Shown here one piece after another: positions 10,171 to 47,611 of a DNA stretch of 64,000 nucleotides; position 1 is the first letter of the stretch, and the number at the start of each line of letters is the position of its first letter. A program made the translations under genes and the position numbers. This DNA is from Xiphophorus maculatus (lineage: Eukaryota > Chordata > Actinopteri > Cyprinodontiformes > Poeciliidae), in assembly GCF_002775205.1 (NCBI RefSeq), contig NC_036443.1, forward strand, positions 16,654,373 to 16,718,372, given 5' to 3'. Under the pieces are notes generated by a model. That model ran no database searches. It had not been told where the DNA came from and was given only the letters and a program-made list of their open reading frames with translations.

Positions 10171-13100
10171 CTAGTCATTAACAAGGCGATACACATGGTA
10201 CTGAGCTCCATGTTCGCTTGTGGACACTTCAAACACGAAGGCAATGCACAGCAGAGTCTCCTGGGTCTCTCTGTTGGACACCACCTGATAAAGGACAAAA
10301 AGGACAACAGGAAGGTAAGAGTTTAGGAGGTTAACAGTAATAAGTTATGGTAAACAGTACATTTAAGAGAATACATAAAGTATGAATTAAACTTAAGTAG
10401 GTTGAAGAAAATTGGAAATGATTTTAAGTGATGTTGGTGTTTTTTGCTTCTGGTATGAGAGTGAATTGTTTTTGCACTTAACCTGCTGAACTTAACTTAC
10501 TGAACTTTAGTGAATAAAATTTCGCATAACAATTATTAACAGGTTCTAGGAAAGTACTGAAATCTGTTTTTAAGCTAGACCTTGTTAAATATAAACTCTA
10601 TAAAAACAAGCCATTTTTCTCGTACAAGTAAATTTAACGCTACAGTCTCTATTATTGCAGCTTGAAGGGGCGGTATTACTGTATGTATTTTCCAGGCTTT
10701 CTGTTATAAAAATGCTGTCTATATCAAATTTGGAAATTTGACTTTACAATTTGATGCCTTGAAATTGGTCTCAATTTCATCTTCAACGACAGTAAAGAGC
10801 TGGTTGACAATTGCAGTCATTCCCTTTCTTTAATCTTTAATCACTTTAGTCCTTCTATCCCCTCGGGCAAATTTTCTTGTTTGGTCAAAAGCTTCGCCAA
10901 TGAATTTGAGTCCTAATGGCTTCTTGACTACAGTCTGTAGCATCGTAGATGTCTTCAAACCCTTTCAAAATGATGATTGTGTTTAAGGTGACTGAGGAAA
11001 TTTGACATGCTAAACACCCTCTTTTTCTTCTCGTAGAAATGTCTTTCAACATTTGTTAAACAAAGTCGGCTTATTGTCTTCTAAGCCCTTAAAGAGGTTC
11101 CAGACTTCTGCTGCTATGCTCTCCGTTTTTCTGACAAGCCTGACTGCATTCACATGGTGTTGGAAGTTCCCAGTTTCTGAGCCGTTCTGACCTTTTATGT
11201 TTATATTTCTGTCATTTGTTTTTAACTGTTATATCAGATTCAGTAAAATACCTGCAGGATGGTGAAGTTCTCAAGTACACTGTTCATCATGTATTTCTCT
11301 GGGAGATGCTTGAGTTTGTGGATAAAGTTGATCATGTATTCACACATAGGTGAACGATGGATGCGGAACATGTACTTTCCTCCCTCTAATAGACCAAATT
11401 CTGTCTGCATGGGGAAAGAAACACACGCATAAGCGTGTATTAAAACACACACCCCCCCAAGTTATTTCTCTGCATCACAACAACGGTGGCTGTTCTCACC
11501 TCAACTTTCTCCACCACCTGTTTTCCAAAGGAGCAAACCTTTGTGGAAACACTGATGGAGATGCCTTCGGTCCCACTGTACTGGCTGCTCACTCCATAAA
11601 ATGCACTAGGGCCCTCCTCAATGTCACCGCTCAGATCCGCCTGGAACAGGAACACCAGCCAAAAATAAATAAAGAAGCTCCCGATGACAAATAATAGCTT
11701 TGGAAGCTCATTTATTACACTGTGTATCAGAAAAAAGTGTGGCTCAGTGTTGCGTTGATTTTTCTAATATATTTCTTATTGACTTTTTGATTAACAAATT
11801 GAAAGACAGAGATCCAAGATATCCTACTTAAATATTATCTGTCTGGTGGTATCTGATGTTGTGCGATTAGCCTCTCAGTGATTTTTTTTTTTCTCCCCTC
11901 AACTCTCAGAGACAATTATTCTTTTTATGTACTAACCCAGAACTTAACGAGAAAGAACGCATTGTGAGGACCCTTTTCGTATAGCTCCTTCAGGCCGCCT
12001 TTCTTTTCTGAGAACTTGTCGTAAATCTGTCTCACGTCTATAGACTCCAAAACCGGGTCGCTGTAGCCTGGATTTGATGGTCCAATGTGAACAAAAAGGT
12101 GTTTATACTGCAGAAAGAAATATGAAAGTCAGAGAGAAGAATACAGCTTTTTTTCTTCTTCTACACACATTCTTTTCGTTATCACATAGTACCGTCTCTC
12201 TGTCTTTTTGAGACTCCATAAAAGCAGAGTACTCGAGTAAACGTAGTTTTGCAGAAGCAATGGTTCTGTCTTGCCATACAGGAGCAGCGATTGCTGTAGG
12301 CCGAGGTGGTGGCAACGTCTCATAACCTGTTGTGCAATCACACATTAAAAAAAATAAACATTTACCTGGGAGTAGCTACAATAATAGGTAAACATTATTG
12401 TGGAGTCTTACTGATTGGTGGAGGGACAGGTGCTGGTAGTGTAGTGTACGGAGGCTGTGCAAAGGGCTTGATGCTATAAATTTTAAGAATTGAAAATGAA
12501 AAAAAAAAAAACAGTTGGAAGGAAGAAATTCATAAAATTATGAAGCTCCGACTTTCCCTGCCAGACTTACTCCTGAGAATGTCCAGGCTGTCCTGGGACA
12601 GGGCCGGGCCAGTACTGAGCAACAACACAGAATGGAAACAAGTCATAAAGCATTTAGATTTTAGCAGGAACATTAAATAAAAAAATAAAAGTTGAGCGTG
12701 TCTAGTTTTTGGTAAGGGTGCTCCAATCAGGAGCCGATTGTCAATTACAAACAGCAGGATCTGCTGGGACAGATACTGAATCAAGAGATGTCCCAAAGTT
12801 GACTACATGCCATCAGGGTTATTAAAAACTGATCAAATAATTTACAGACATTGCCGCAATTTTTTTTTTTCCTGACTGCTGAGCATTAAGGCTCCACATC
12901 TGCTCAGCTTTCATTTAAACCGAACTAATTTGTTGGGGAAATCTTGATTAAACCTGTGATAACAGAGCGACTCAGATGGTCACTAGAAAACTTCATAAAA
13001 ACAAAGATACTGAGCTATTTTCTCCGTATTAAAGAATAATTCTTCATTTAGGATCAGTACTGTTCTGTACCACTTATTTCTGCTCATAATATCCAAGGTT

Positions 13101-16100
13101 TTCACACATAATCAAATTAAAAAAAAATCAATCCTTCTACATACTGTAATTTCCAAAATTAGCAAATAAGAAAAAAATAAAATCACAAACTGTGACATGG
13201 ATGGACAAATTGACAGACAGGAACTTGTCTGGATGCATTTAAAAAAGATCTGCTGAAAGAACAAGCTAAATAGACTGCAGTTATATCCGTTACTTCTAAG
13301 TACTTTTGCTGCCCTCTGGTGGAATCTGCCTAATGCTTTAAAAAAAAAAGAAGTGCATTCTCTTTTAAAATACCTGCCTGGATTTTCTGATCAACATTTT
13401 CAGTGACCACCAATAAAAATCAACCGATACAAATAACTGGCAATGAGGGCCTGATTACTGGAGCACCCTTAGTGTGTGTCTCACTCTGACTGGTGGAGGG
13501 AAGGGAGTCTGAGGTTTCATTACACTCGCTGACACAATCTGAGCCGACGACAGGTTGGCCACTGTCTGGAGTGCCTTATCTTTGGATACCTGATCCTAAA
13601 TGAAAGAAGAGACACACACAGAGTAATACACAATGGTAAAAAACCATCAATTTCAATGTAGGTTAACATAAAGGTCAGACAACTTTTAAAGGATCATCTT
13701 ATCCAGTGGGCCAGCCAACATTCACTTAAGGTCAGCAAGATGCAGTTACTATAAAGGACAAGACATGAAAGACAGCAAAGCAGAGCTAAGAAGCAAAAGC
13801 TGGAGGCGTACCAAGTTGGAAGAGCTAAACCATCACCAGCACTTAGCTAAAGCCACTAAAATAAAAAAAAAAGAAAAAACAAAGCAATGAGTAGTTTTTG
13901 AGTATGGCAGTAGAGCTGCAATATGAACTAGCAGTAATAAAAATGTAATGCCAACCACACAGCGCAACAAAAGCCTGAAGCAGAGAACTGGAGTTGTGTA
14001 ACCAAAAACTTACCAAGTTCATGGCCTATGGCAAAAGAGACATGTAATAAATTCAATTTAGTACACTCAAAACGAAGGGGACAGATGTTGGGTAACACAA
14101 AAACTCTGTCTGCTTTGAAATTCATTTGGGGCAGTCATCACTCTGGGTTACTCTGAACTCCTCACAAATGTTGGGATTTTAAATAACTAATTATGCCCAA
14201 AGAGCCCAAAATGTGGCAGAAAAAAAGAAAAATCTATGTCAAGTCAAAACTTTCAGCAGTAATAACAATAACGTAGTGAAGGAAAGTTTGTATTTGCAGT
14301 TGTTGACAGTCTTCATGAGACCAACTTGTTTTGTTGGACTTGAAAATGTCTGACTACATTACATGGTGTGTAATGAGTGAAGACTTTGTTGAAACCAGGT
14401 TGGAATAATTTACCAATAACTTCTAAATGATGAACCACAAAATGCTCTGAAGAAGTCTAAATATTTCACTGGAAGGTTTAAGAATAAACTCAAGCAAACA
14501 CTAAATTTAAAACCTTTTACCATATAAGAAAACTAACAAATCAGGGGGGGGTGACACTATGAACAACTTTTGTGACTTTAAAACTTTTAAAATATTTTGT
14601 GGTATTTATTGGGACAACAGTAAAAGTGACAAAACAGTATGTACAACCTCTTTGGAAACTCTAACTGCATTCTATCGTATTTTTAAATTATTGTTACTTA
14701 TTGATGTTCTTATGGAATCAACAATGGAGAAAATAGTAAATATAAAAATCCCAACAGCACAGCCATTTTGTGGGGGTTTCAAAGCAAATTCCATTAATTG
14801 GAATTTGTCATAAAGATAAATTCTTATAATATTTTTTTTTCCAGATAAAAGATATGATAAATGCCCATTCTTAATCAGTCCTAAAGGGTGCTTACATCCA
14901 CAAATGTATTTAATTTTTAAGAAGCAAGAAGTCAGTGCAAAATGATGGTAGACAACACTGCGCTCAAGGGACAAACAGGAAAAAAGTAGAGAAAGAAAAG
15001 GAAAAAATACTCAAGAATGGGAAAACAGATCAGGTTTATCTTCAAAGTGTAACCCTCAGTGAGAAGAATATTACAATGTCTTTGCTAGTGTGTGTGTGTT
15101 TGTGTTTGCAGGCATGAATGCACTTTATCATATACATAGATAAACTAACCAAGCAATGTAATCTCATGCAATTATCTGCCAGATGTCCTGAGCGAAATGA
15201 GCAGGCCAGCAAACTCTCATGCATAGACAAAAACTCTTAGCAAAAAATCTAATCCCTTGAAAAGTCACAAAATAAAGGTTCCCCCCCCCATGAGCAACGA
15301 TAACAAAACTACAGCCAGCAAGCAAACATGATATTTGTGATACAAAGAAAAAAAATGTACTGTATCTAAATGTGCGCATAACACATAGCTTCACTTCTGC
15401 GTCATTAACTGCGAGTCCAAATTAAGGTTTTACTCTCATGCAGCTAAAAGCAAGAGCAGCGGCAGCAGAGCAGCGCTACAGAGCCTGAATTAATTTGACA
15501 TGCAGCTGTGCAAATTAGCTGACTATTAACAAATCTAAAGGTGTATTCCACAGTTTCACAGCATGCAATCTAATCTTAGGAGAGAAGGCTTGCAAGAGCT
15601 GACCAGTGACAGTCCCTGTGGTCTGAACTATGACCAATCTGCAGTTGGAGCTTTGACAACCAACAAGTATTTTTTAACTCTATTACAATACAATAGGTTT
15701 AGTAAGATTTGAGCGACATGCAGAACAACGCTGCCAGCACTGCAAAGTCAGTACGCCTGTGTACCTTCAGCTTAGACTGAAATTCACGAGACTTTCTCTT
15801 GGCCAACACTTGCAGGTGACTAGAGACCTGAAGAAAGACAGGATGAAGGGGAAAGGATGGAAGGAAATGGGGAAAAGAAGGAGGACTGTAACTACAGAGG
15901 ATAGAGAGAGTTGATGCCACGGGAACCCACCTTGATGCTCGCCTGGTATTCACGTACCCGCTTACGTGCCAAAACTTGAATGTGACTAGATACCTTTGGG
16001 GTCAAGTTTAACCCCATGAAAACAAAAAGGAGGATCTTTCAATTTAGAAACAACCAAGATGGCATCCATTTTTGTGAGTGACTAAACATGTGTAATGTTC

Positions 16101-18527
16101 TACAAAACACCGCTGGAAATATGCGTATTGTCCAGAAATATCTGTGCTTACCTGTTTGCGAGTACGTGTCTTTCCAGTTCGAAGCTTTATATAGCGAGCT
16201 ATCAGCTCATTTCGACCTAGAATCCAGAGGAGAAACAAGTGATTAAAAGAAGCAACAAAAAGGGAGCTGAGTACGTGTGTCTCATTTTAATAAAGTTACA
16301 AGTAATTCAATCTTAGTTCTACACCAAGTTTGATAACGGATGACATCAGCACTATCCCGTCCAGACCACTCCAACTCCACAAATTTGTCAGCTCCCCCTT
16401 CACAAGATGCCGCTCTGGGAAGTTGCCCAAGTCGCCCACACCAGAAACCGACAGACACTGCAAGTCCTTTATAGTAAAGAACTCACAGAGCAGGTATATT
16501 CACTGAAGCCAAAAGCTAAAATTAAAGTGAATCCTTTTGTTTTAATCCCTTGACTATTTTGCAAAAGAAGCAAGTGCAACTTTACTGATGGCTCTAGTTA
16601 ATTGTAAGATGTCTCTGAAAAAAACAAAATAAAAAAGGCTTTTGTTGATCCAACCCAGCACTCATTACACAATTATAATCTCTGGCAGGCTTTGCATATC
16701 TGTGGCTTCACAATGTCCCCATTAAAAGCTTCATAGGCCTGGTTTGGCCTTCCTTCCTGGCAGAGCTCCAAAACAAATGACAAATAGGATGTATGAAAAA
16801 AAAAAAAAAAAAAGTAGTGAATGTCTGCACGGGTGACTACAGACTGCCTGTTCATCACTTTCTTCCTTTGCCTCACTAGCTACAAATCAGCCATGATGAT
16901 CTGATCGTAAAGTGGTGAGCAACTCACTCTGCTGCAAGAAGGTTAACTGGAGGTGTAATGGTTGATCCCATATGTGTAGCAACATCATCAGCAAATAAAA
17001 CGATGTGCTTTTCTTGGAAGTGACTGAGCCCCTTGGGGACTCTGGATGAGTCACATCAGTTAACTTACCAGCAACATAAAATTCCCCAAAAATCCTCAAA
17101 AAGAGGTTGACTCAGACAAATCAGACCACTCCAACTCCCCAAACACAAGGACACAAAGTCCTTCCTGCCTACTGCTGCTCCTTATAAGGTCAGTGACTTT
17201 TCTTTTGAAGTAGTTGATTGCAAAACTGAAAATGAGGAGCATAGGGCATAAAAACAAAGACCCAGAAACAACACTGAAAGCCCGGGGGATCGTTTACTGG
17301 CAGACAGAAATGGTGCCTTTAAACTCAATGTAGATTAAATAAAGGACTGCTGTTCATTTCACAAGGGCTGATGTAGAAATAACCTCCAAGATTTTACTCC
17401 TGGGAATTTGTGCCAGTGATGATCTCACCTGACGAGGCCCGACTGCCCATCTGTTCCTGCTCCGTCATCTAGAGCATACTTACCAGTTAGCGTTGCTATG
17501 TGGCACATGAATAATACAGCAAAAAGGCCTACTAGCCACTGCAACAATTGGCTAGAGCTAGACATGGGCCGGTCAGCGGCCAAAGGTATTCAAACCCTTA
17601 AAGTTAGGTTTAAAAAGTGATTACATTTATCCTCCTATGATTTGAAAATATTTTATTGATATGCCACGGAAATTGCCGGAGTTTTCTCCAGCATCATAGA
17701 AAAGCACAGTGATGCTCAGCAAAGGTCAGTCAATTGTAAATATAAATGCAGGAGAAGCAACACTTATTTCTCTTAATACAATAATGCTTTTTAACTCTAT
17801 CGTTGGCAAGTGACTAAGTGTTTTGTACTGCAGCCTGGCTACCTGAACAAATAGCCCGACTCCTCAATTAATATCAGTTATATTTTATACTTGCATTAGT
17901 CTAGGAAGCAGAGCTATAAAAGGTAATATTCAGTGCATTAAACATGTGAAAACTACACCTTAATTTAGTGTATTTATTCAAAAGTTTTGCTCAAGTCAGT
18001 GGATCAAAATCATAATAAATATTAAAGAGATGAACCAGAAAAGTTGCAAGTAGCTATTCCCCCCCATCAGCTCTAAATCATAAAAGAAATGGTCAAATAG
18101 TGAAAAGTAGTAATCTTGTTTCCAATTTATCACTGCCAACATTTTTTTATCTATAAATTACTTAACTAAGAACATGAGTTTAAAATAAATTAAATAGGTA
18201 AAAAACATGTGTGTTGCTTCATAAGTTGGGATAACTTTGTAATTTCTCAGTCTTCTGTTAATGAAAACTACTTATCACAAAATTTGTAAAAAAAAAAAAT
18301 TCTTTCTCATCTGGGATAGCTCCAGAAAAAAACTCCAAACATAATAAACAAACACAAAATGGAAAACATATGGTAAAATCTCAAAGAAAACTGCAAATTG
18401 ATATTGGACAGAACAAGCCTGTCAAAGCATATCAAGCTAAATATTACAATCACACAACAGCAATAATTAATGTAAGATTTCAGGAGCAGTGGGAGTAATT
18501 GCTTTTTCTTTAGAGGTAGAAAAAAAT

Positions 18528-18592
<65 letters not shown>

Positions 18593-21500
18593 CAAATACA
18601 GAGACATATTTATTCAAACTAATGTGTGAAGTTTAGTGGATTGAGATATTTATTTAAAAAATGCACATTGTTTTACTGTTGTTCCTTGATTTCAATTTAT
18701 TCTTTTTAAATCTGACTGTAAAAAGGCAACGAGTAAAGACTTTACAACTGGCGTTAAAACGGTGCATATGACGAGCATATCTGCACCATTTGAGTCACCA
18801 ACAATTGATTTATAAGAAGGCAGTCTTACACCATAAGCAACTTTAGTTGCGAGAATGATATGAAAAATATTGTGACTAACCCTCCCACTCCGACTTTATC
18901 ATTTCTTGTGGGGGAGAAAACAACGAGTGGGAGTGATGTGTCAGAAGCAAGTTCTACACCTGAATAAACTTCTGCTTATTTTTAAGTGTTTTGCAGCGTT
19001 TTTCCTACCATTATTCCCTACCATTATGCACCACGCCCCGCCAACGGGACCGCTCGCCGTGCAGCATGCAGTAATTGACGGTATTAACAGTTAAAGTTAT
19101 TGCCTTTACCAGCATAAGTACCGCCAGATCTCGTGAGCCATTTCTGTTCCTACATGGTCGATAGCCATCTTTCAGCTCTCTCTCAAGCTCGGTTTAGAGT
19201 AGACGCATCATTGTGAACTTTCAAAAGCGTCAACATCAAAGTTGATAAAAGCTGAATGGAAACGCGTGCTTCTACTCCGTTTTCTGCGATGCTAGCACGT
19301 GATGAGTCGGGTAGGCTAGCACGAGGGCGAACACCGCCAGCAAAAGGACAGCTCACACAAAAACAGCTGCAAAAAAACTGCAATACTGATATGGATATCA
19401 GCGTTATTTTAAGCATATTGAATTGTGTTTTGGTTGCAGTACTTGCAGGTAGCAGCAGGAGTTATACTCTTGTACCTTCGCATATGGCGAAGGCTAAGTG
19501 CTTAATGTCCTAGATAAGCTCAAGTGCAACTTCAATGGCAGTTAAATACATTTTATTTGTGTCAATTGCCGTTATTCAATTGCTCTACATACTGATTGTA
19601 GTTATTAAAAGAAAGAAGAGGTGCACCTATTGCATTTTTATGGACAATAAAAAACTATTTGTGGGCTAACTGTTTCTAACTTGCTTCTGCACTAAATATA
19701 GCAAAAAAGTTGCAAAGTTGGCAACAGTAGGAAGACTATTGTCAAACACAGCCCTCTCTCAGAGCCTTGTGGTAGTAGAAAACATCAGTTGCATGTGCAA
19801 GAATCGATAGATCGTTGATCACATAAAATTAAAGAAATTGGGGATGATCAATCATTGCCCTCCACCAGGGCCAGGTCTCTAGGGGAAACACTGAGCAGTG
19901 CTACTCTGCTGTCCTTTAAGTTGGTTAGGAAATGCTAAGCTGTTGTTCTGTGAAAACAAATCTGGGTGTAATAATAAAAATTAGCACAGCTTTTAAGCGC
20001 CACAATGCTGAAACAAACTTATCTGTGACATAGGTGTTTTGTTTTTTTTTTCCCCTCATAGCACATCACCTAATGAAGTAGAGGCTGAAGCGGATGAAAA
20101 TGCTAATAAGTGACTGATCAACATGACTGGGATTCTTAGATGTGAGCCAAAACCTTCATTAATATAGGAATAAAATTCTATTCCACATACTCTTCTTAAG
20201 GCCCTGAATGCACCCTGGTGCAAACAGACAGAGAGTACAATGAACATGCACATACAGTATATTAAACTGAATAAAGCAGACCAATGTAAACAAATTTTTA
20301 AGCCATCAGTGCATAAACAAAAACAAACAAAATGACACTTTCCACGCCAACTTGACCTAAAACGTCAACTCGCTCTATCCTTTGATCTTGTTACTACTGG
20401 CTGCCCTCTGACCCCAAAGCCAAATACTTCTCTCCAAAACTACCTGCAGACAGATCACTAGTCGACAAACTAAGAGGTCTCTGTAAAAAGGGAAGACAAC
20501 AAAACAAAGCTCTATAATGCAGATATGGCCAATAAAAAACCTTGTGCAAGCGGTAAACATAAACAGGGTCTAAAATCAGAACCTGCTGAGGTCCAAATGA
20601 AGGTTATTTTTGGATTACATTGATAAAGTGAATGTTTTAAAGATAAAATCAGTTTTTGGTTATTTATTATTGCGTTTCAAATCTGCAGCAAGTTAAAAAG
20701 AAAGAACAGAATAAAAACAGAAATGGAAAGGTGGACAGAGAGCAAGAAACATAAACTGAAAAGTGAATTCATACAGCCCAGAATGCCTTCTTCATGACGT
20801 CCACCAACAAAGTGTGGCTAAAATACGATGCAAACCGGAACATCAAAAAGTGATTTATTTCAGTAATTCAACTCAAACTGTGATCATCCTGTTTTTTATA
20901 GGATCATTACATACAGGGTGATAGATTTCAGAAATAATTTGGAAGATAATGGATTATAGCCAAAACCCTTTATTCTTATTACCAGAAAAACACCAGAAAA
21001 GATCAATAAATGTTACGTCAAGACTTCCACAGTAATGTGGAAAACAGCTGACTTGACAGTTGTTCAGCAGACACTCCCTCAGAAGGAGGGTAAGCCACAC
21101 AAAGTTCTACATCCAAGCATATTAAAGGAAAGCTTGACAGAAGGAAAAAGGATGGTAAAAAAAAAAAAAAAACGTGCACAAGTAACAGGAGTTAAATCAG
21201 CCTTGACAAGATTGTTAAGCAAAGTCCAGTCAAAACACTGTGAGGAAGATTCGCAACTAGAATCAGCGCTTCAAAAGCCACCACACAGATATATCTAGGA
21301 CATGAGCTACAACTGTTGCATTCCTTGTGTTAAACCAATCCTTGGCCAGGCAACGTCAGAAGTACTTTACATGAGCGGCGCATAAGAAAAGGATTGGAGT
21401 GTTGCTCAGTGCTCCAAACTTTTTTTTTCTTTTCCACAGAAAAGTACATTTTGTATTTCAGTGGAAATCAATGTCCCAGAGACCAGCGGAAGAGTGGAGA

Positions 21501-22182
21501 AGGCCAAAATCCAAGCTGCCTGAGGTCCATCACCAATGAGGATTTACAGGAGAAAGTTATCTGTTGGTGTCGGTCCACTAAGTTTTACCGACTCCAAAGT
21601 CACCCTAGATTGTGAGAACTTCATGCTTCCCTTTGCTGAAAAGCTCTATGGAGAGGCTGATTTCATCTTCCACAGGACCCCCAAAAGTACCAATGCCTGC
21701 TTCAATGACAAGAGTACCGCTGTGCTTGCTGGTCAGTACATGTGCAAAGGAAAAATTTGCAGACAGACAGCTAATCCAATTGAGTTCATACACTATATTC
21801 TATCCAGTACATCATTTTCATTAGGCCAGCAACACATTTAGGAATACGCCCATTTTCGACAGTTTTGTCTGTGATTATGCTGTACTTAAGACGTAGAAGA
21901 CAGGAATTTAAGGAGTGAAAAGAAAACTGGCCATCATAATTATCTCAGGACAGAAATCTTCTTACCATACATCTTGCCCTCATCTGAAAGTATGATCTTT
22001 CTCCTCCCGCAAGGAGGGTAGATGGCCAGCGCTTCTTGAAAGCTCTGCTCAATGTCTGGACTCCAGACGCCTTCTGGGTCGCCATCCAATCCACGGTCAG
22101 CCCCATCTGCCAGTCCCTCTCCGTTCCCGCTCTCCTCCTGCGCCCCATCAGGGCTGCTTCGGCAACTCCACTCCGACGCAAT
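10171..22182 (-). CDS. tead3: TEAD3 transcription factor (TEA domain, YAP/TAZ partner), complete
   Basis: Sequence-specific nuclear transcription factor; the family binds MCAT (CATTCC) sites through an N-terminal TEA domain and recruits YAP/TAZ through a C-terminal domain. Coding exons (minus strand): 22182-21966, 16216-16152, then 15993-15931 or 15827-15765, 14025-14014, 13595-13485, 12614-12571, 12473-12412, 12326-12193, 12107-11937, 11640-11500, 11404-11252, 10284-10171. Joined with one alternative exon these give 1287 nt, 428 aa plus stop, in frame throughout; human TEAD3 is about 435 aa. Visible hallmarks: [20 protein letters not shown] and [14 protein letters not shown] (TEA domain), [73 protein letters not shown] and a C-terminus [18 protein letters not shown]3-type features are [21 protein letters not shown] and [13 protein letters not shown]. 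One residue of the usual TY(S/N)KH junction is missing. Fish carry tead3a and tead3b; which this is cannot be told here. Confidence 0.95.
12713..13471. mobile_element. Probable hAT-like element in a tead3 intron
   Basis: TAAGGGTGCTCCAATCAGG (12713-12731) is matched in inverse orientation by CTGATTACTGGAGCACCCTTA (13451-13471), an imperfect terminal inverted repeat of about 20 bp around 0.76 kb of AT-rich DNA without an ORF. I could not find a matching target-site duplication, so the element is old or the boundaries are approximate. Its right end lies 14 nt from the splice donor of the tead3 exon 13595-13485. Confidence 0.45.
14014..14025 (-). CDS. tead3: tead3 12-nt microexon (AMNL)
   Basis: The exon GCCATGAACTTG encodes AMNL between acceptor TTTTGCCATAG and donor GTAAGTTTTT. 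Mammalian TEAD3 has the same AMNL right after the TEA domain, before [13 protein letters not shown]1 lacks it. The exon is 12 nt and phase 0, so skipping it leaves a TEAD1-like junction in frame. Confidence 0.85.
14026..15764 (-). other. tead3: tead3 intron before the microexon
   Basis: Intron between alternative exon b and the AMNL microexon. It is AT-rich, with a C9 run near 15281-15289 and short A runs. No further exon was recognised. Confidence 0.5.
15765..15827 (-). CDS. tead3: tead3 alternative exon b (TEAD1/2/4-type recognition-helix half)
   Basis: Exactly 63 nt, phase 0, encoding VSSHLQ then [15 protein letters not shown]. This matches the TEAD1/TEAD2/TEAD4 form (VLARRKSR...SKLK) better than TEAD3. 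It has a good acceptor (TGTCTTTCTTCAG) and a GTACAC donor. It is interpreted as a tandem duplicate of exon a used in a mutually exclusive way, since each keeps the frame and inclusion of both would repeat half a helix. Both copies are open and splice-competent, so neither looks like a decayed exon. Confidence 0.85.
15931..15993 (-). CDS. tead3: tead3 alternative exon a (TEAD3-type recognition-helix half)
   Basis: Exactly 63 nt, phase 0 at both ends, encoding VSSHIQ then [15 protein letters not shown]. This matches the mammalian TEAD3 form (VLARKKVREYQ..IK). It forms the second half of the third helix of the TEA domain, the DNA-recognition helix. Its acceptor (GACCCCAAAG) has a poor pyrimidine tract; its donor is GTGGGT. 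A GGGGT/ACCCC inverted pair (15998-16002 and 16011-16015) sits against the acceptor. It is separated by only 103 nt from a paralogous exon of identical length. Confidence 0.9.
18531..18590. repeat. (TA)n microsatellite
   Basis: About 30 uninterrupted AT dinucleotides inside the large tead3 intron. Such tracts vary in length between individuals and can form cruciforms. No further role is visible. Confidence 0.95.
19110..19168 (-). other. Exon-like minus-strand segment, unassigned
   Basis: ATG at 19168 in a fair context (GAAAGATGG) opens a frame [19 protein letters not shown] that runs to a good donor, TGCTG|GTAAAG, at 19110. The surrounding 0.5 kb is less AT-rich than the rest of the intron. 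I do not recognise the peptide and see no partner exon downstream. It could be the first exon of a nested transcript, an alternative tead3 5' exon, or chance. Confidence 0.2.
20840..21800 (+). pseudogene. Tc1/mariner transposase relic
   Basis: Plus-strand frames near 21555-21790 contain [13 protein letters not shown], then [17 protein letters not shown], then [17 protein letters not shown]. These correspond to the central and catalytic-core region of fish Tc1-like transposases ([41 protein letters not shown]). Frames are shifted between segments and an acidic catalytic segment is missing, so it is dead. It lies antisense to tead3 inside its large intron. The left boundary is uncertain. Confidence 0.65.
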
Positions 22183-41597: not shown

Positions 41598-41691
41598 GTC
41601 CTTGGGGCTGAGGTAGTAGATTGAATAGTTGTGGGGTTCTTTAACCTCTTTTTCAGATAACTATGCAATCTACTGTCTTTCCCAAGGAGAC
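41598..41691 (+). ncRNA. let-7e: let-7e precursor microRNA
   Basis: The 5p arm TGAGGTAGTAGATTGAATAG plus TT at 41609-41630 equals fish let-7e; seed GAGGTAG is intact. The 3p arm CTATGCAATCTACTGTCTTT at 41661-41680 pairs with it, and the base TCCTTGGG...CCCAAGGA closes the hairpin. let-7 represses lin-28, ras and hmga2-type targets and drives differentiation. It sits 58 nt after a strong splice acceptor (41551), hence probably exonic in its host. The G in the 3p arm (CTATGCAA rather than CTATACAA) pairs with the T of 5p by wobble or shifts one pair. Confidence 0.95.
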
Positions 41692-41842: not shown

Positions 41843-41936
41843 CTGTCAGGGTGAGGTAGTAGGTTGTATAGTTTGGTAGGTGGGACTGCACCCTGCTGAG
41901 GTGATAACTATACAGTCTATTGCCTTCCCTGAGGAG
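41843..41936 (+). ncRNA. let-7a: let-7a precursor microRNA
   Basis: The 5p arm TGAGGTAGTAGGTTGTATAG plus TT at 41852-41873 is exact let-7a. The 3p arm CTATACAGTCTATTGCCTTC (41908-41927) pairs with it, and TCAGGG...CCCTGA closes the stem. Its mature 5' end lies 243 nt after that of let-7e on the same strand, so both probably come from one primary transcript. The 3p arm (TTGCCTTCCCTGAGG) is closer to let-7b/c-type arms than to let-7a-type ACTGTCTTTCC arms. Confidence 0.95.
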
Positions 41937-42419: not shown

Positions 42420-45225
42420 CTAGTCGCTTGTTATAGCTTGCTGAATTGATTCATTTCTGGTAAAACAATTGAGCTTCAATGTGAGATGCTTCCATATTTG
42501 ACAGTAGGCCTTCTGGATCTTGGGGATGCGACAAGCGTAGACCACTGGGTTGACTGCTGAGTTGGCGTGAGACAGAAGGATACCTGCAGGACGATCGGTT
42601 TGTTACTGAATCAGTAAATTTCTGCAATACATAAGGCTGGAAGAATATTTTGGAACTACAGTTGGTGAGTTTGGTCCATAAACAGGGTCATTCACATAAA
42701 AAACTGATTGTTGATGGTCTACATTTATTTATTTAATAACTAAGTTGATATTATTGATGACAAATATAAATGATTTAATAGCTATGCTTCTAGAACTGCT
42801 ACATTATAGAGGAAACAACTTCTAGGATTTCTAAAAACAAACATTGGATGCACAGCCTTAAACCAATTTTTATTTTCTCAAATCTTCACAGGGTCAAAGG
42901 TTTAGGTACAGGCACAAATATGTTTCCACAATTTCTCTAATATTTGTTTTAACCTCACATGACTGAATACTTCTTGTGGCCAGCGACAAACACATGACAT
43001 GTTTCTGGCTGGATATTTGACCACTATTCTTGGCAGGATTGTAAGTCATTTAAACAGTTGATTTTCTACTGTGGACCTGATTTAAACATACACAGGAGTC
43101 TTTAAATAGAGTTGAGAGGCTTTGGGAATCCTAATCTTAGCCTGCTGTGTCCATTCCAGAGTCATTTATCGTATTTTCGGGGGTTCATTGTCCTGTTGAA
43201 AGCCTACTTGTGTCCCATATTTCAATATTCTTGCTGCTTTTTGAGGTAATGTTAGTCCTCTTTTATTGCTATTTCACACACTTTGATGCATTAACAAAAC
43301 AATCCCACAACATGATGCAACCACCACTGTACCTGTTTGCAGATGGCACATTATTTCTTAGGTTTGATCACCTCAGCTTGACTCTTTCAAGCATACAGTA
43401 TGTCCCTGTGGTCAAGCAGCTCAATCTTTGCCTTATTTGACCATAATACCTTTCTTCCGAATAATATTTACCATTCACTAATATCATATTCGCATCGAGT
43501 TATGCTCATCAGTGGACACTAAGAGATTTTGCCAATATAAAAACTATTCTCCTTGTTAGGTCTTTACTGAGTTGCTTGGACTTTGACATTCTTTAAACTG
43601 TGTTGAGTATTGTCAAACAAATACTGTATTTTTATACTGGCAAATGGAAACTTAATGCCTGAAATCAATCCTGGTCAATAACTGGTCCTTGTAAAGTTAA
43701 AAGACATTAAAGACATTCAGTGAAACATAATAAAAGACCAAAAATGTATGTAAAGAACTAGAACCAAACATGTAGAATCAGGATTCAGTAATTATGCTCC
43801 TCTAATCTGGAACTAACTTCCAGAAAACAGCAAAAATCATGAGAGTTCCTTTAAAGCAAAGGCTGAACCCCATTTGTTCAGAGTTGCTTTTGATTAATCA
43901 TAACTGGAGCCTCATTAGTTTTACGCTGGATTGTAAATTCTCTTTATTTTGCCACTGCAATGTATTAAGTTTTGTTTCTATTATGTAAAGCACTTTGGGT
44001 TGCCTTGATGCTGAAATGTTCTGTACATGATGATAATAATGTTAATTAACGATGATATGTTTAAGTCTACTGAAATAATTTGCAGCCTCTGTGGATCACA
44101 CGAAAGCCACAATAAACGTTAACTTGCAGAACCGATATTGTTCTTATAAAATCAGCAATATAACTGACAGCTTCAACAAAATAAATTACGAAACCCAAAA
44201 TTAATGTGACGTTAGATTTTTGCATGTAAATTTCCCTAAGACACTTGCTGTCTGGAGCTGTAAGCAATCAACTTGTTGTATATGTGGAGACATTTTAACA
44301 TCTGTGCAAGGAATAGGAAAACAACTCTGACCTACCTGTATAAAGTGTTCCCTGGGTCACTGCTTGAGGTCCCCAGAGGAACAGAAGACAGTTCATGAGG
44401 TGCAGAGGGATCCAGCAGAATGCAAATAATGTGAGAACCAGAGCAAGTGAGCAGGCCAGCTTCTTCTCCCTGAGCAGCAAGGCCTGTGCTTGAGGGCAGC
44501 TGTTCTTCAGACGTTTGTGCAGGCTCCAGAAGATGATGATGTACAGAAGTGTCATGACCAATAGAGGGGCCATGATACAGCCGAGAAAGTTGAAATAAAC
44601 CATAAAGGGCAGTGAGATAACTGAGAGGAAGGTGCATTGGGAAGAGCTAGGCAAGGTAGAAGATGTGTTGGTGGAATAATGGCCAGCGGCAGAGAGATTG
44701 TGCCATCCAAGCAGAGGGGTGAATCCCAGTAGAAAAGACAGTATCCAACAGATGGACATGGCCAACAGTGTGCGCCTCTGAGTGACGATGGCTTTGTATC
44801 TGAAAAGAGAGAGAAAAAATAAAAGGAGACAATGAGAAAATTATTCCGGCAATTCTTATAAAGTTGTGAGACGGAGGTCGCCTTTACCTGAAAGGCATGT
44901 GCAGCCGCAGGTATCGGTCAATGGCAATAGCCAGCAGTGAGAGGACGGAGGCCTCTGTCAGCACAAGTATGACGCAGCTGAGGAACAAGCACTGGTGAGA
45001 GGTCAAATTCACCCAGCCATCCAGCAGTACAGCTAGAGGCACGGCAGCTGCACCCACCAAAAAGTCAGCAACAGCCAAGGACACCAAGAAGCAGAAAGTC
45101 GGCTCCCGGAAGCAATCGTGGATACCAACAGCCACCGCACACACCACCAGCACGTTCCCAAGGCAACATGCCACAGCAATGAGCACTTCCAGCACTGTGT
45201 AAGTTACCCAAGCCCAATCAGCCAT
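42420..45225 (-). CDS. Adenosine-receptor-like class A GPCR (A1/A3 group)
   Basis: Seven-transmembrane receptor for extracellular adenosine by family. Exons 45225-44888, 44799-44336 and 42583-42420 join in frame to 966 nt (321 aa plus stop), the usual size of A1 and A3 receptors (about 320 aa). The ATG at 45225 gives [14 protein letters not shown]. Visible motifs: GNVLVVCAV (TM1), SLAVAD (TM2), [14 protein letters not shown] (DRY, end of TM3), [16 protein letters not shown] (TM4), FMVYFNFLG (TM5), [13 protein letters not shown] (TM6), [16 protein letters not shown] (TM7 NPxxY). The tail is short and ends in ITSD. TM1-TM4 read most like A1, TM7 like A3 and A2B, so no subtype symbol is given. 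The first intron, after the DRY helix at MPFR, is the family's usual position; the second, at the start of TM7, is not. 3'-to-3' neighbour of the let-7 unit. Confidence 0.88.
42960..43510 (-). pseudogene. Decayed Tc1/mariner transposase fragment
   Basis: On the minus strand TTTCAACAGGACAATGAACC (forward about 43182-43201) reads FQQDNE, the Tc1 transposase QQDNDP motif around the second catalytic Asp. No frame is open for long. It lies in the second intron of the adenosine-receptor-like gene, antisense relations permitting no expression role. Confidence 0.5.
43785..44045 (+). repeat. L2-like LINE 3' end
   Basis: GATTCAGTAATTATGCTCCT, CTAATCTGGAACTAACTTCC and TGTAAAGCACTTTGGGTTGC form the recognisable 3' part of a teleost L2/Rex1-like element. 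It is closely related to the fragment at 22975-23160 and shares the TATGCTCC(T)CTAATCTGGAA core. Confidence 0.5.
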
Positions 45226-45228
45226 CAC

Positions 45229-46462: not shown

Positions 46463-47611
46463 AGTGGCTTTTATCTCCTCCTTTGGCCAGCTAATTATTC
46501 AGATACCCTGCTGGAATAATTAGCTGGCCAAAGGAGGAGATAAAAGCCACTGATATTAAGACTAGAAAACTACTAACAATGCATGGAGGATTCCATCCCA
46601 AATCCAGCACCCTGAGACTGTACACGAGCCGCAAGGAAGGAGGCAGAGGACTAGTGAGTGTGAGAACCACAGTCCAGGACGAAACAACTAAGATCCATAA
46701 ATACATCAGGGACAAAGCCTCAACAGACAATGTGCTCAGTGAATATCTCAGACAACAGGGAACGGAGGTTGAGGTGCCAGAGATACCATCATGGCAGGAC
46801 AAGCCCCTACATTGGATGTACCACCAGCAAATAACCCAAGTGGCTGATATCAGTAAATCCTACCAATAGCTGGAAAAAGCTGGACTCAAGGACAGCACAG
46901 AGGCCCTCATCCTGGCCGCCCAGGAACAGGCCCTAAACACCAGAGCAATAGAGGCCCAGATATACCACACCAGACAAGACCCAAGGTGTAGGTTGTGCAA
47001 GGAGGCCCCTGAGACAGTCCAGCACATAACAGCAGGGTGCAAGATACTGGCAGGGAAAGCGTACATGGAACGACATAACCAAGTTGCAGGCATAGTGTAC
47101 AGAAACATCTGTGCAGAATATGGACTGGAAACCCCGGGATCAAAGTGGGAAACACCCCCAAAGGTGGCGGAGAACGCCAGAGCTAAGATCCTGTGGGACT
47201 TCCAGATCCAGACAGACAAAATGGTAATGGCGAACCAACCAGACATTGTCGTAGTGGATAAACAACAGAGGAAAGCCGTTGTGATAGATGTAGCAATACC
47301 AAGCGACTGCAACATCAGGAAAAAGGAGCACGAGAAACTAGAGAAATACCAGGGCCTCAGGGAGGAACTGGAGAGGGCCTGGAAGGTGAAGACCACAGTG
47401 GTGCCTGTGGTCATCGGGGCCCTCGGGGCAGTCACCCCCAAACTGGACCAATGGCTACAACAGATCCCAGGAACAACATCAGACATCTCAGTCCAGAAAT
47501 GTGCAGTCCTTGGCACAGCCAAGATACTGCGCAGAACCCTCAAGCTCCCAGGCCTCTGGTAGAGGACCCGAGCTCAGAGGATAAGAACCACCCGCGGTGG
47601 GTGAGAAGGGA

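Follow-up and report, generated by a model that had tools for sequence, protein, structure and literature searches.

Within the Hippo pathway, TEADs are the factors that bind DNA. They are of interest as drug targets, and it is generally assumed that each gene encodes a single, fixed DNA-binding domain sequence. A stretch of 64,000 nucleotides from Xiphophorus maculatus (contig NC_036443.1, positions 16,654,373 to 16,718,372), in the following termed the window, contains a tead3 gene in which two adjacent exons, a and b, both encode the same part of the third helix of this domain. The locus raises the question of whether splicing selects between two versions of the recognition helix, how old such an arrangement would be and what it would change in the protein. 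If tissues make use of the choice between a and b, then binding maps, structures and reporter assays obtained with one form would cover part of TEAD1/TEAD3.

The tandem exons of the window tead3 gene

The TEA domain match (PF01285) at the window locus, designated C1, its full open frame and relatives carrying the names TEAD3 or TEF-5 identify the gene as a TEAD3. Among the matches listed, those with names are annotated as TEF-5, as TEA domain 3 or with generic TEA-domain names, and the closest full-length public relative is TEF-5 of Xiphophorus couchianus (P0002, 97%), a protein containing exon a only. Together with 11 other coding exons, the open frame amounts to 428 residues with exon a, 428 with exon b, 449 with both and 407 with neither (Table 1). 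It starts at an ATT codon (IASEW..., window 22180-22182, reverse strand), and such a non-AUG start is also known from mammalian TEAD genes. The microexon AMNL is included in some public models and missing from others.

Table 1. Positions of tead3 features in the window.
Feature	Position	Strand	Description
tead3 coding span	10171..22182	-	from ATT start codon to TAG stop codon; nearest public relatives carry the name tead3a
First coding exon e2	22182-21966	-	begins with ATT
Upstream exon	16152..16216	-	22 residues; stops one codon ahead of a or b
Exon a	15931..15993	-	63 nt, phase 0, 21 residues, AG/GT borders, donor GTGGGT
a-b intron	15828..15930	-	103 nt, GT-AG, 3' part pyrimidine-rich (84% over last 80 nt)
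TTAC, predicted branch point of exon b	15888..15891	-	A at +42 from donor a, 61 nt from acceptor b
Exon b	15765..15827	-	63 nt, phase 0, 21 residues, AG/GT borders, donor GTACAC
Microexon AMNL	14014..14025	-	12 nt, comes after a or b
Next constitutive exon	13485..13595	-	follows microexon AMNL
Last coding exon e13	10284-10171	-	ends tead3 frame

Direct reading and splicing of the sequence confirm the tandem pair that an initial annotation had located in this otherwise intact gene, with two in-phase 63-nt exons placed 103 nt apart. The acceptor of exon a reads ...GACCCCAAAG and that of exon b ...TTTCTTCAG, and the two exons are identical at 40/63 nucleotides. Their earlier characterization, with exon a resembling the usual TEAD3 sequence and exon b the usual TEAD1/2/4 sequence, is upheld, and the accompanying interpretation as a whole is partly supported.

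Helix 3 of the TEA domain contacts the major groove of MCAT DNA (PMC5876656). Both exons had been described as carrying the VSSH(I/L)Q half of this helix, and latter motif is indeed their common opening; the reading as alternative exons for the distal half holds, and since the opening is shared, the exchange concerns the distal half of helix 3. Base contacts presumably fall into the shared opening, as we assume from the TEAD4-DNA structure. Consistent a/b differences at all three loci that contain the pair are found at positions 11 (K/R), 13 (V/S), 18 (A/S), 19 (S, G or A/K) and 20 (I/L) of the 21 residues, with a net charge of +4 in exon a and +5 in exon b. Because VSSH(I/L)Q is kept, the most likely effect of the swap is a change in the distal helix that would tune backbone contacts, cooperativity or partner interactions more than the core reading of bases. 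A search of the PDB found five TEA-domain sequences, and 5/5 have b-type residues at positions 11 and 13.

Occurrence and products of the exon pair

PF01285 marks five TEAD loci in the genome, and the a/b pair is present in three of them: the window gene, a second tead3 (C20), where the intron between the exons measures 142 nt, and tead1 (C4), where it measures 90 nt. Some public names distinguish window-like proteins as 'TEA domain family member 3 a' from C20-like proteins as '3 b'. At each of these loci the exons are adjacent, homologous and of equal length and phase, as is characteristic of tandem-duplicated exons, and because the same arrangement recurs in C20 and in tead1, the pairing is more than a coincidence. 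The two TEAD loci of C2 contain exon b alone, and a search of both for a remnant of exon a found none above shuffled sequence (best 27-30/63, compared to 31-34 as top of 100 shuffles); we infer that exon a was lost from them. As a separate observation, the tead1-like locus among these (L014, C2:18.7M) carries a CATGG word 90 nt ahead of exon b and a long pyrimidine tract at the position of the a-b intron.

Public proteins, which are mostly computed models, were sorted by patterns for the two exons that miss variants, as in P0229, which was filed as b only though its letters read a+b. A search with the b isoform of the window tead3 returned 3459 matches, and the 120 listed comprise 40 proteins with exon a only, 53 with exon b only, 18 with both exons joined, 5 with read-through of the intron and 4 with neither exon. 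For the second search, which used residues 96-150 of the a+b protein of gar and is biased to joined forms, 120 of 261 matches were listed; among the 104 new ones, 100 are joined and 3 read through the intron, with P0175 as remainder, and their reach includes sharks (Scyliorhinus, Carcharodon, Chiloscyllium, Callorhinchus), frog, rattlesnake, birds, a marsupial and placental mammals. Residues 81-150 of the a isoform of tead1 served as third query, for which 120 of 2332 matches were listed (61 with exon a only, 32 with both exons joined, 12 assigned to b only, 9 with read-through of the intron and 6 matching neither pattern), from fish, Xenopus laevis, gecko, viper, Callorhinchus, Mobula and mammals including Callithrix and Papio.

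Single-exon products with either a or b exist as database models in related fish and other vertebrates, and joined a+b models occur in fish, shark, frog, bird and mammal. For TEF-5 of Brienomyrus brachyistius all three forms are recorded (P0094 with a, P0071 with b, P0067 with a+b), and a form with neither exon is recorded for Poecilia latipinna (P0013). Exons that strictly exclude each other would never be joined, which is not what is found at the level of database models, where the many joined proteins contradict the mutual exclusivity considered in the initial annotation. Nor is the swap between TEAD3 and TEAD1/2/4 types peculiar to fish tead3, as had been supposed, since tead1 has the same pair and TEAD3 models of shark, frog, bird and mammal contain it as well. 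A fish-only origin of the pair is ruled out by these records from sharks, frogs, birds and mammals. A record from lamprey (P0137, TEF-5-like of Lampetra planeri) was set aside; it is likely a fish contamination, because its N-terminus and its DQASKDKAL exon resemble C20 tead3 of the present fish.

The abundance of joined models would be accounted for if a and b were two independent cassette exons that are freely included, giving a, b, both or none, with the joined form of lengthened helix as a main product. Such models make up 18/120 and 32/120 of the matches listed in the searches not aimed at joined forms and 100/104 of the new matches listed in the search that was; the form with neither exon in P. 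latipinna, the length of both exons in multiples of three and a structural model in which the joined form is predicted to keep its helix would equally fit. However, proteins with a single exon exceed joined ones among the matches listed, by 93 to 18 in the first search and 73 to 32 in the third, and a mechanism of choice agrees with the shortness of the intron and with the conserved branch-point-like word that it contains close to the donor. We regard free inclusion as unlikely. We instead consider it probable that the tandem-duplicated pair, which is found in tead1 as well, lets splicing choose between an a and a b form of the distal TEA-domain recognition helix.

Inclusion of both exons had been expected to keep the frame and to break the helix, and while the former is the case, latter is at odds with two AlphaFold models of the gar protein, in which helix 3 encompasses residues 61-85 with b only and 61-106 with a+b and is thus unbroken and 21 residues longer, at a mean confidence that is low in both models (61.4) and modest over exon b (blocks of 58-68). 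The prediction on this basis is that joint inclusion extends helix 3, by 21 residues, and does not interrupt it.

Two further observations concern the public models and the intron. The a-b intron of tead1 (L015 4493-4582) is open and in frame in this genome, and the read-through found in 17 public TEAD1/TEAD3 models may reflect products of intron retention or artefacts of annotation. In the unnamed P0175 (303 aa), a fused GRNELIARY...RKQ-VSSH segment occurs three times in frame, with intron-like stretches between the copies, which end in KVKDLQHSFK, KVKDLQNVIK and KAKEIQGHLK; this is perhaps a second, independent multiplication of a TEA-domain exon.

Age of the pair and selection on its sequence

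In comparisons between C1, C20 and C4, a exons of different genes share 44-53/63 nt and b exons 46-50/63, compared to 39-42/63 for a and b within a locus. Of 5000 codon bootstraps, 98.8% gave a positive mean difference in favor of like with like, and a tree calculated with FastTree groups the a exons of tead1 and tead3 with a support of 0.993. Because a groups with a and b with b, and the pairs agree in order, length and intron word, the duplication appears to predate the split of TEAD1 and TEAD3; most likely, a single event took place in a TEAD gene ancestral to both, an age estimate that draws on the little data contained in 63 nt.

A different history, in which exon b would have come late into tead3 as a copy from a TEAD1/2/4-type gene and would be specific to tead3 of fish, is suggested by the resemblance of this exon to the usual TEAD1/2/4 sequence. 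This origin of exon b is not favored by the fact that tead1 itself holds both exons, with an a-type exon at the same place, nor by the grouping of like with like, including the well supported group of a exons, and both exons are present in TEAD3 of sharks, frog, birds and mammals. We regard this history as highly improbable.

Both exons have diverged at the nucleotide level with little change in the encoded residues. Between C1 and C20, exon a shows 13 nt differences and 2 amino-acid differences, with a mean of 8.2 in neutral simulation (P 0.00005 or less), and exon b 17 nt differences and 2 amino-acid differences, with a neutral mean of 10.0 (P 0.00005 or less). In six comparisons covering both exons, 2-3 amino-acid changes were found where neutral simulation gave means of 6.5-11.2 (P 0.00075 or less). 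These comparisons indicate that both exons are under strong purifying selection. What the window contains is a real, old and conserved tandem exon pair, common to TEAD3 and TEAD1, of an ordinary kind in an unexpected place.

Splice signals and relation to known tandem exons

Splice sites were scored with simple matrices. Of the 12 acceptors of the window gene, that of exon a is the weakest and that of exon b the second strongest, whereas the donor of a is strong and that of b the third weakest of 12. The exons had been described as intact with usable splice sites, of which the former stands and latter needs correction with respect to acceptor a and donor b. The contrast is milder in C20 and C4, where acceptor a scores 7.0 and 6.4 and donor b 8.2 and 8.2, respectively. 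The weak acceptor in the window might be the mark of a decaying exon a that is hardly used in this species, with b as the working exon, and such decay would agree with the lack of exon a at two further TEAD loci in this genome. The strong selection on the reading frame of exon a, its strong donor and the a-only composition of the X. couchianus protein, the closest full-length relative among the matches listed, stand against it and render this explanation highly improbable.

Long pyrimidine tracts characterize the a-b introns, with pyrimidines accounting for 84%, 84% and 70% of the last 80 nt at the three loci. The predicted branch-point A, part of a TTAC at each locus, is located at +42 from donor a in the window, at +49 in C4 tead1 and at +61 in C20. 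A second candidate in C20 is CTGAC at +35, and C4 contains TTCAT at +37. In the 17 read-through public models, intron-derived peptides were tested for whether they could be encoded by particular DNA words, with shuffled peptides as reference. The word CATGGYTACAGG is encodable in 9/9 TEAD1 introns at +47 to +55 (shuffled peptides 0.3% at most), in three reading frames, with viper and mormyrid differing from the other seven. In TEAD3, TGGTTACGGCTT is encodable in 5/8 introns at +47 to +62, likewise in three frames (shuffled peptides up to 0.9%), and no branch-point-like word was found in the remaining 3/8, which are from two puffers and one grouse. Overall, such a word is encodable in 14/17 read-through introns, which points to conservation of the DNA rather than of the peptide.

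A comparable arrangement is known from exons 4a/4b of OGDH, where the choice is imposed by mapped branch points that lie 25-41 nt past the first donor and a threshold of ~50 nt was proposed (PMC7969005); 57 human clusters were assigned to this steric short-distance class (PMC5740500). OGDH and TEAD share a short intron, a long pyrimidine tract, conservation in vertebrates and, by prediction in TEAD, branch points near the first donor. Unlike in OGDH, the branch points of TEAD are predicted, at a larger distance of 42-62 nt, and joining both exons preserves the frame. The position of the predicted word suggests a leaky form of steric exclusion, which should be weak where the distance exceeds 50 nt, as in C20 (+61) and in several fish TEAD3 introns with a predicted branch point at +60 to +62.

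In the mechanism that we propose, exon b would be spliced via the branch point 42-62 nt behind donor a, followed by the long pyrimidine tract, and the use of donor a together with that branch point would be sterically hindered. With acceptor a and donor b both weak in the window gene, pyrimidine-tract-binding and SR-type factors would be able to influence the choice. Since the distance is near the ~50-nt limit and the length of each exon is divisible by three, a fraction of joined a+b transcripts would be expected to evade this exclusion and to give a TEAD with a helix 3 that is 21 residues longer. A review reports that SRSF1 promotes inclusion of TEAD1 exon 5 and that loss of ESRP2 leads to exclusion of a Tead1 exon (PMC10167241).

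The kind of tandem exon described here is already known, as is evident from collections of 236 curated human tandem duplicated exon substitution events (PMC9741552) and 629 mutually exclusive exon clusters (PMC5740500), and neither main text mentions TEAD. Judged by these texts, the TEAD exons resemble the curated examples in that they are adjacent and homologous and agree in length and phase, and also in their age, their conservative residue changes and, at the level of database models, their single-exon products. They differ from them in that joined products are common and that the pair is common to two paralogous genes. In the open literature searched, we found no account of the a/b pair in TEAD1/TEAD3, and an earlier description may exist elsewhere.

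Certain reports on human TEAD1 may concern the same exons. Its 'exon 5B' has a weak 3' and a strong 5' splice site and is skipped at an increased rate upon treatment with risdiplam, as demonstrated by PCR (PMC10325915), and an 'intronic region' ~90 bases upstream of TEAD1 exon 5 shows diminished inclusion (PMC12422734). Both fit exon a, an identification made here: the strength of the splice sites agrees, and 90 nt is the length of the a-b intron in tead1 of the present genome. The accessible text of the two papers mentions neither a duplication of exon 5 nor a change in the DNA-binding helix, and the exon pair offers an explanation for both observations. A study on EMT lists an in-frame skipped exon of TEAD1 as an internal repeat that lies downstream of its TEA domain (PMC3158048), and this exon may also be a member of the pair. 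Other regulated splicing of TEADs in or beside the DNA-binding part includes the TEAD1 exon 6 microexon controlled by RBFOX2 and TEAD4-S controlled by RBM4 (PMC10167241, PMC5867882). As described there, a 12-nt exon that follows the helix is regulated in the former and the DNA-binding domain is lost in the latter, unlike the exchange of half a helix.

In a broader version of the preferred reading, which we put forward tentatively and hold to be possible rather than probable, TEAD1 and TEAD3 of vertebrates, including human, would contain an ancestral splicing switch of the distal helix that predates the vertebrate genome duplications, together with a joined form in which the helix gains 21 residues and a second SSHxQ, both missed by the 5/5 solved TEA domains. 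If true, the output of the Hippo pathway would have a DNA-binding mode that is set by splicing. The pair also provides a testable example of a splicing switch that was kept by two paralogous genes with the identities of a and b preserved.

Besides tead3, the window contains an open reading frame (46993-47562, forward strand) that by eye resembles the C-terminal part of a non-LTR retrotransposon and has no Pfam match, and, on the reverse strand, a 7TM receptor of the rhodopsin family (PF00001) in two open pieces (44295-44765 and 44884-45228). A search for RNA families found none near exons a and b, and those detected in the window are two let-7 microRNA precursors, which are located 160 nt apart on the forward strand (41603-41685 and 41846-41932).
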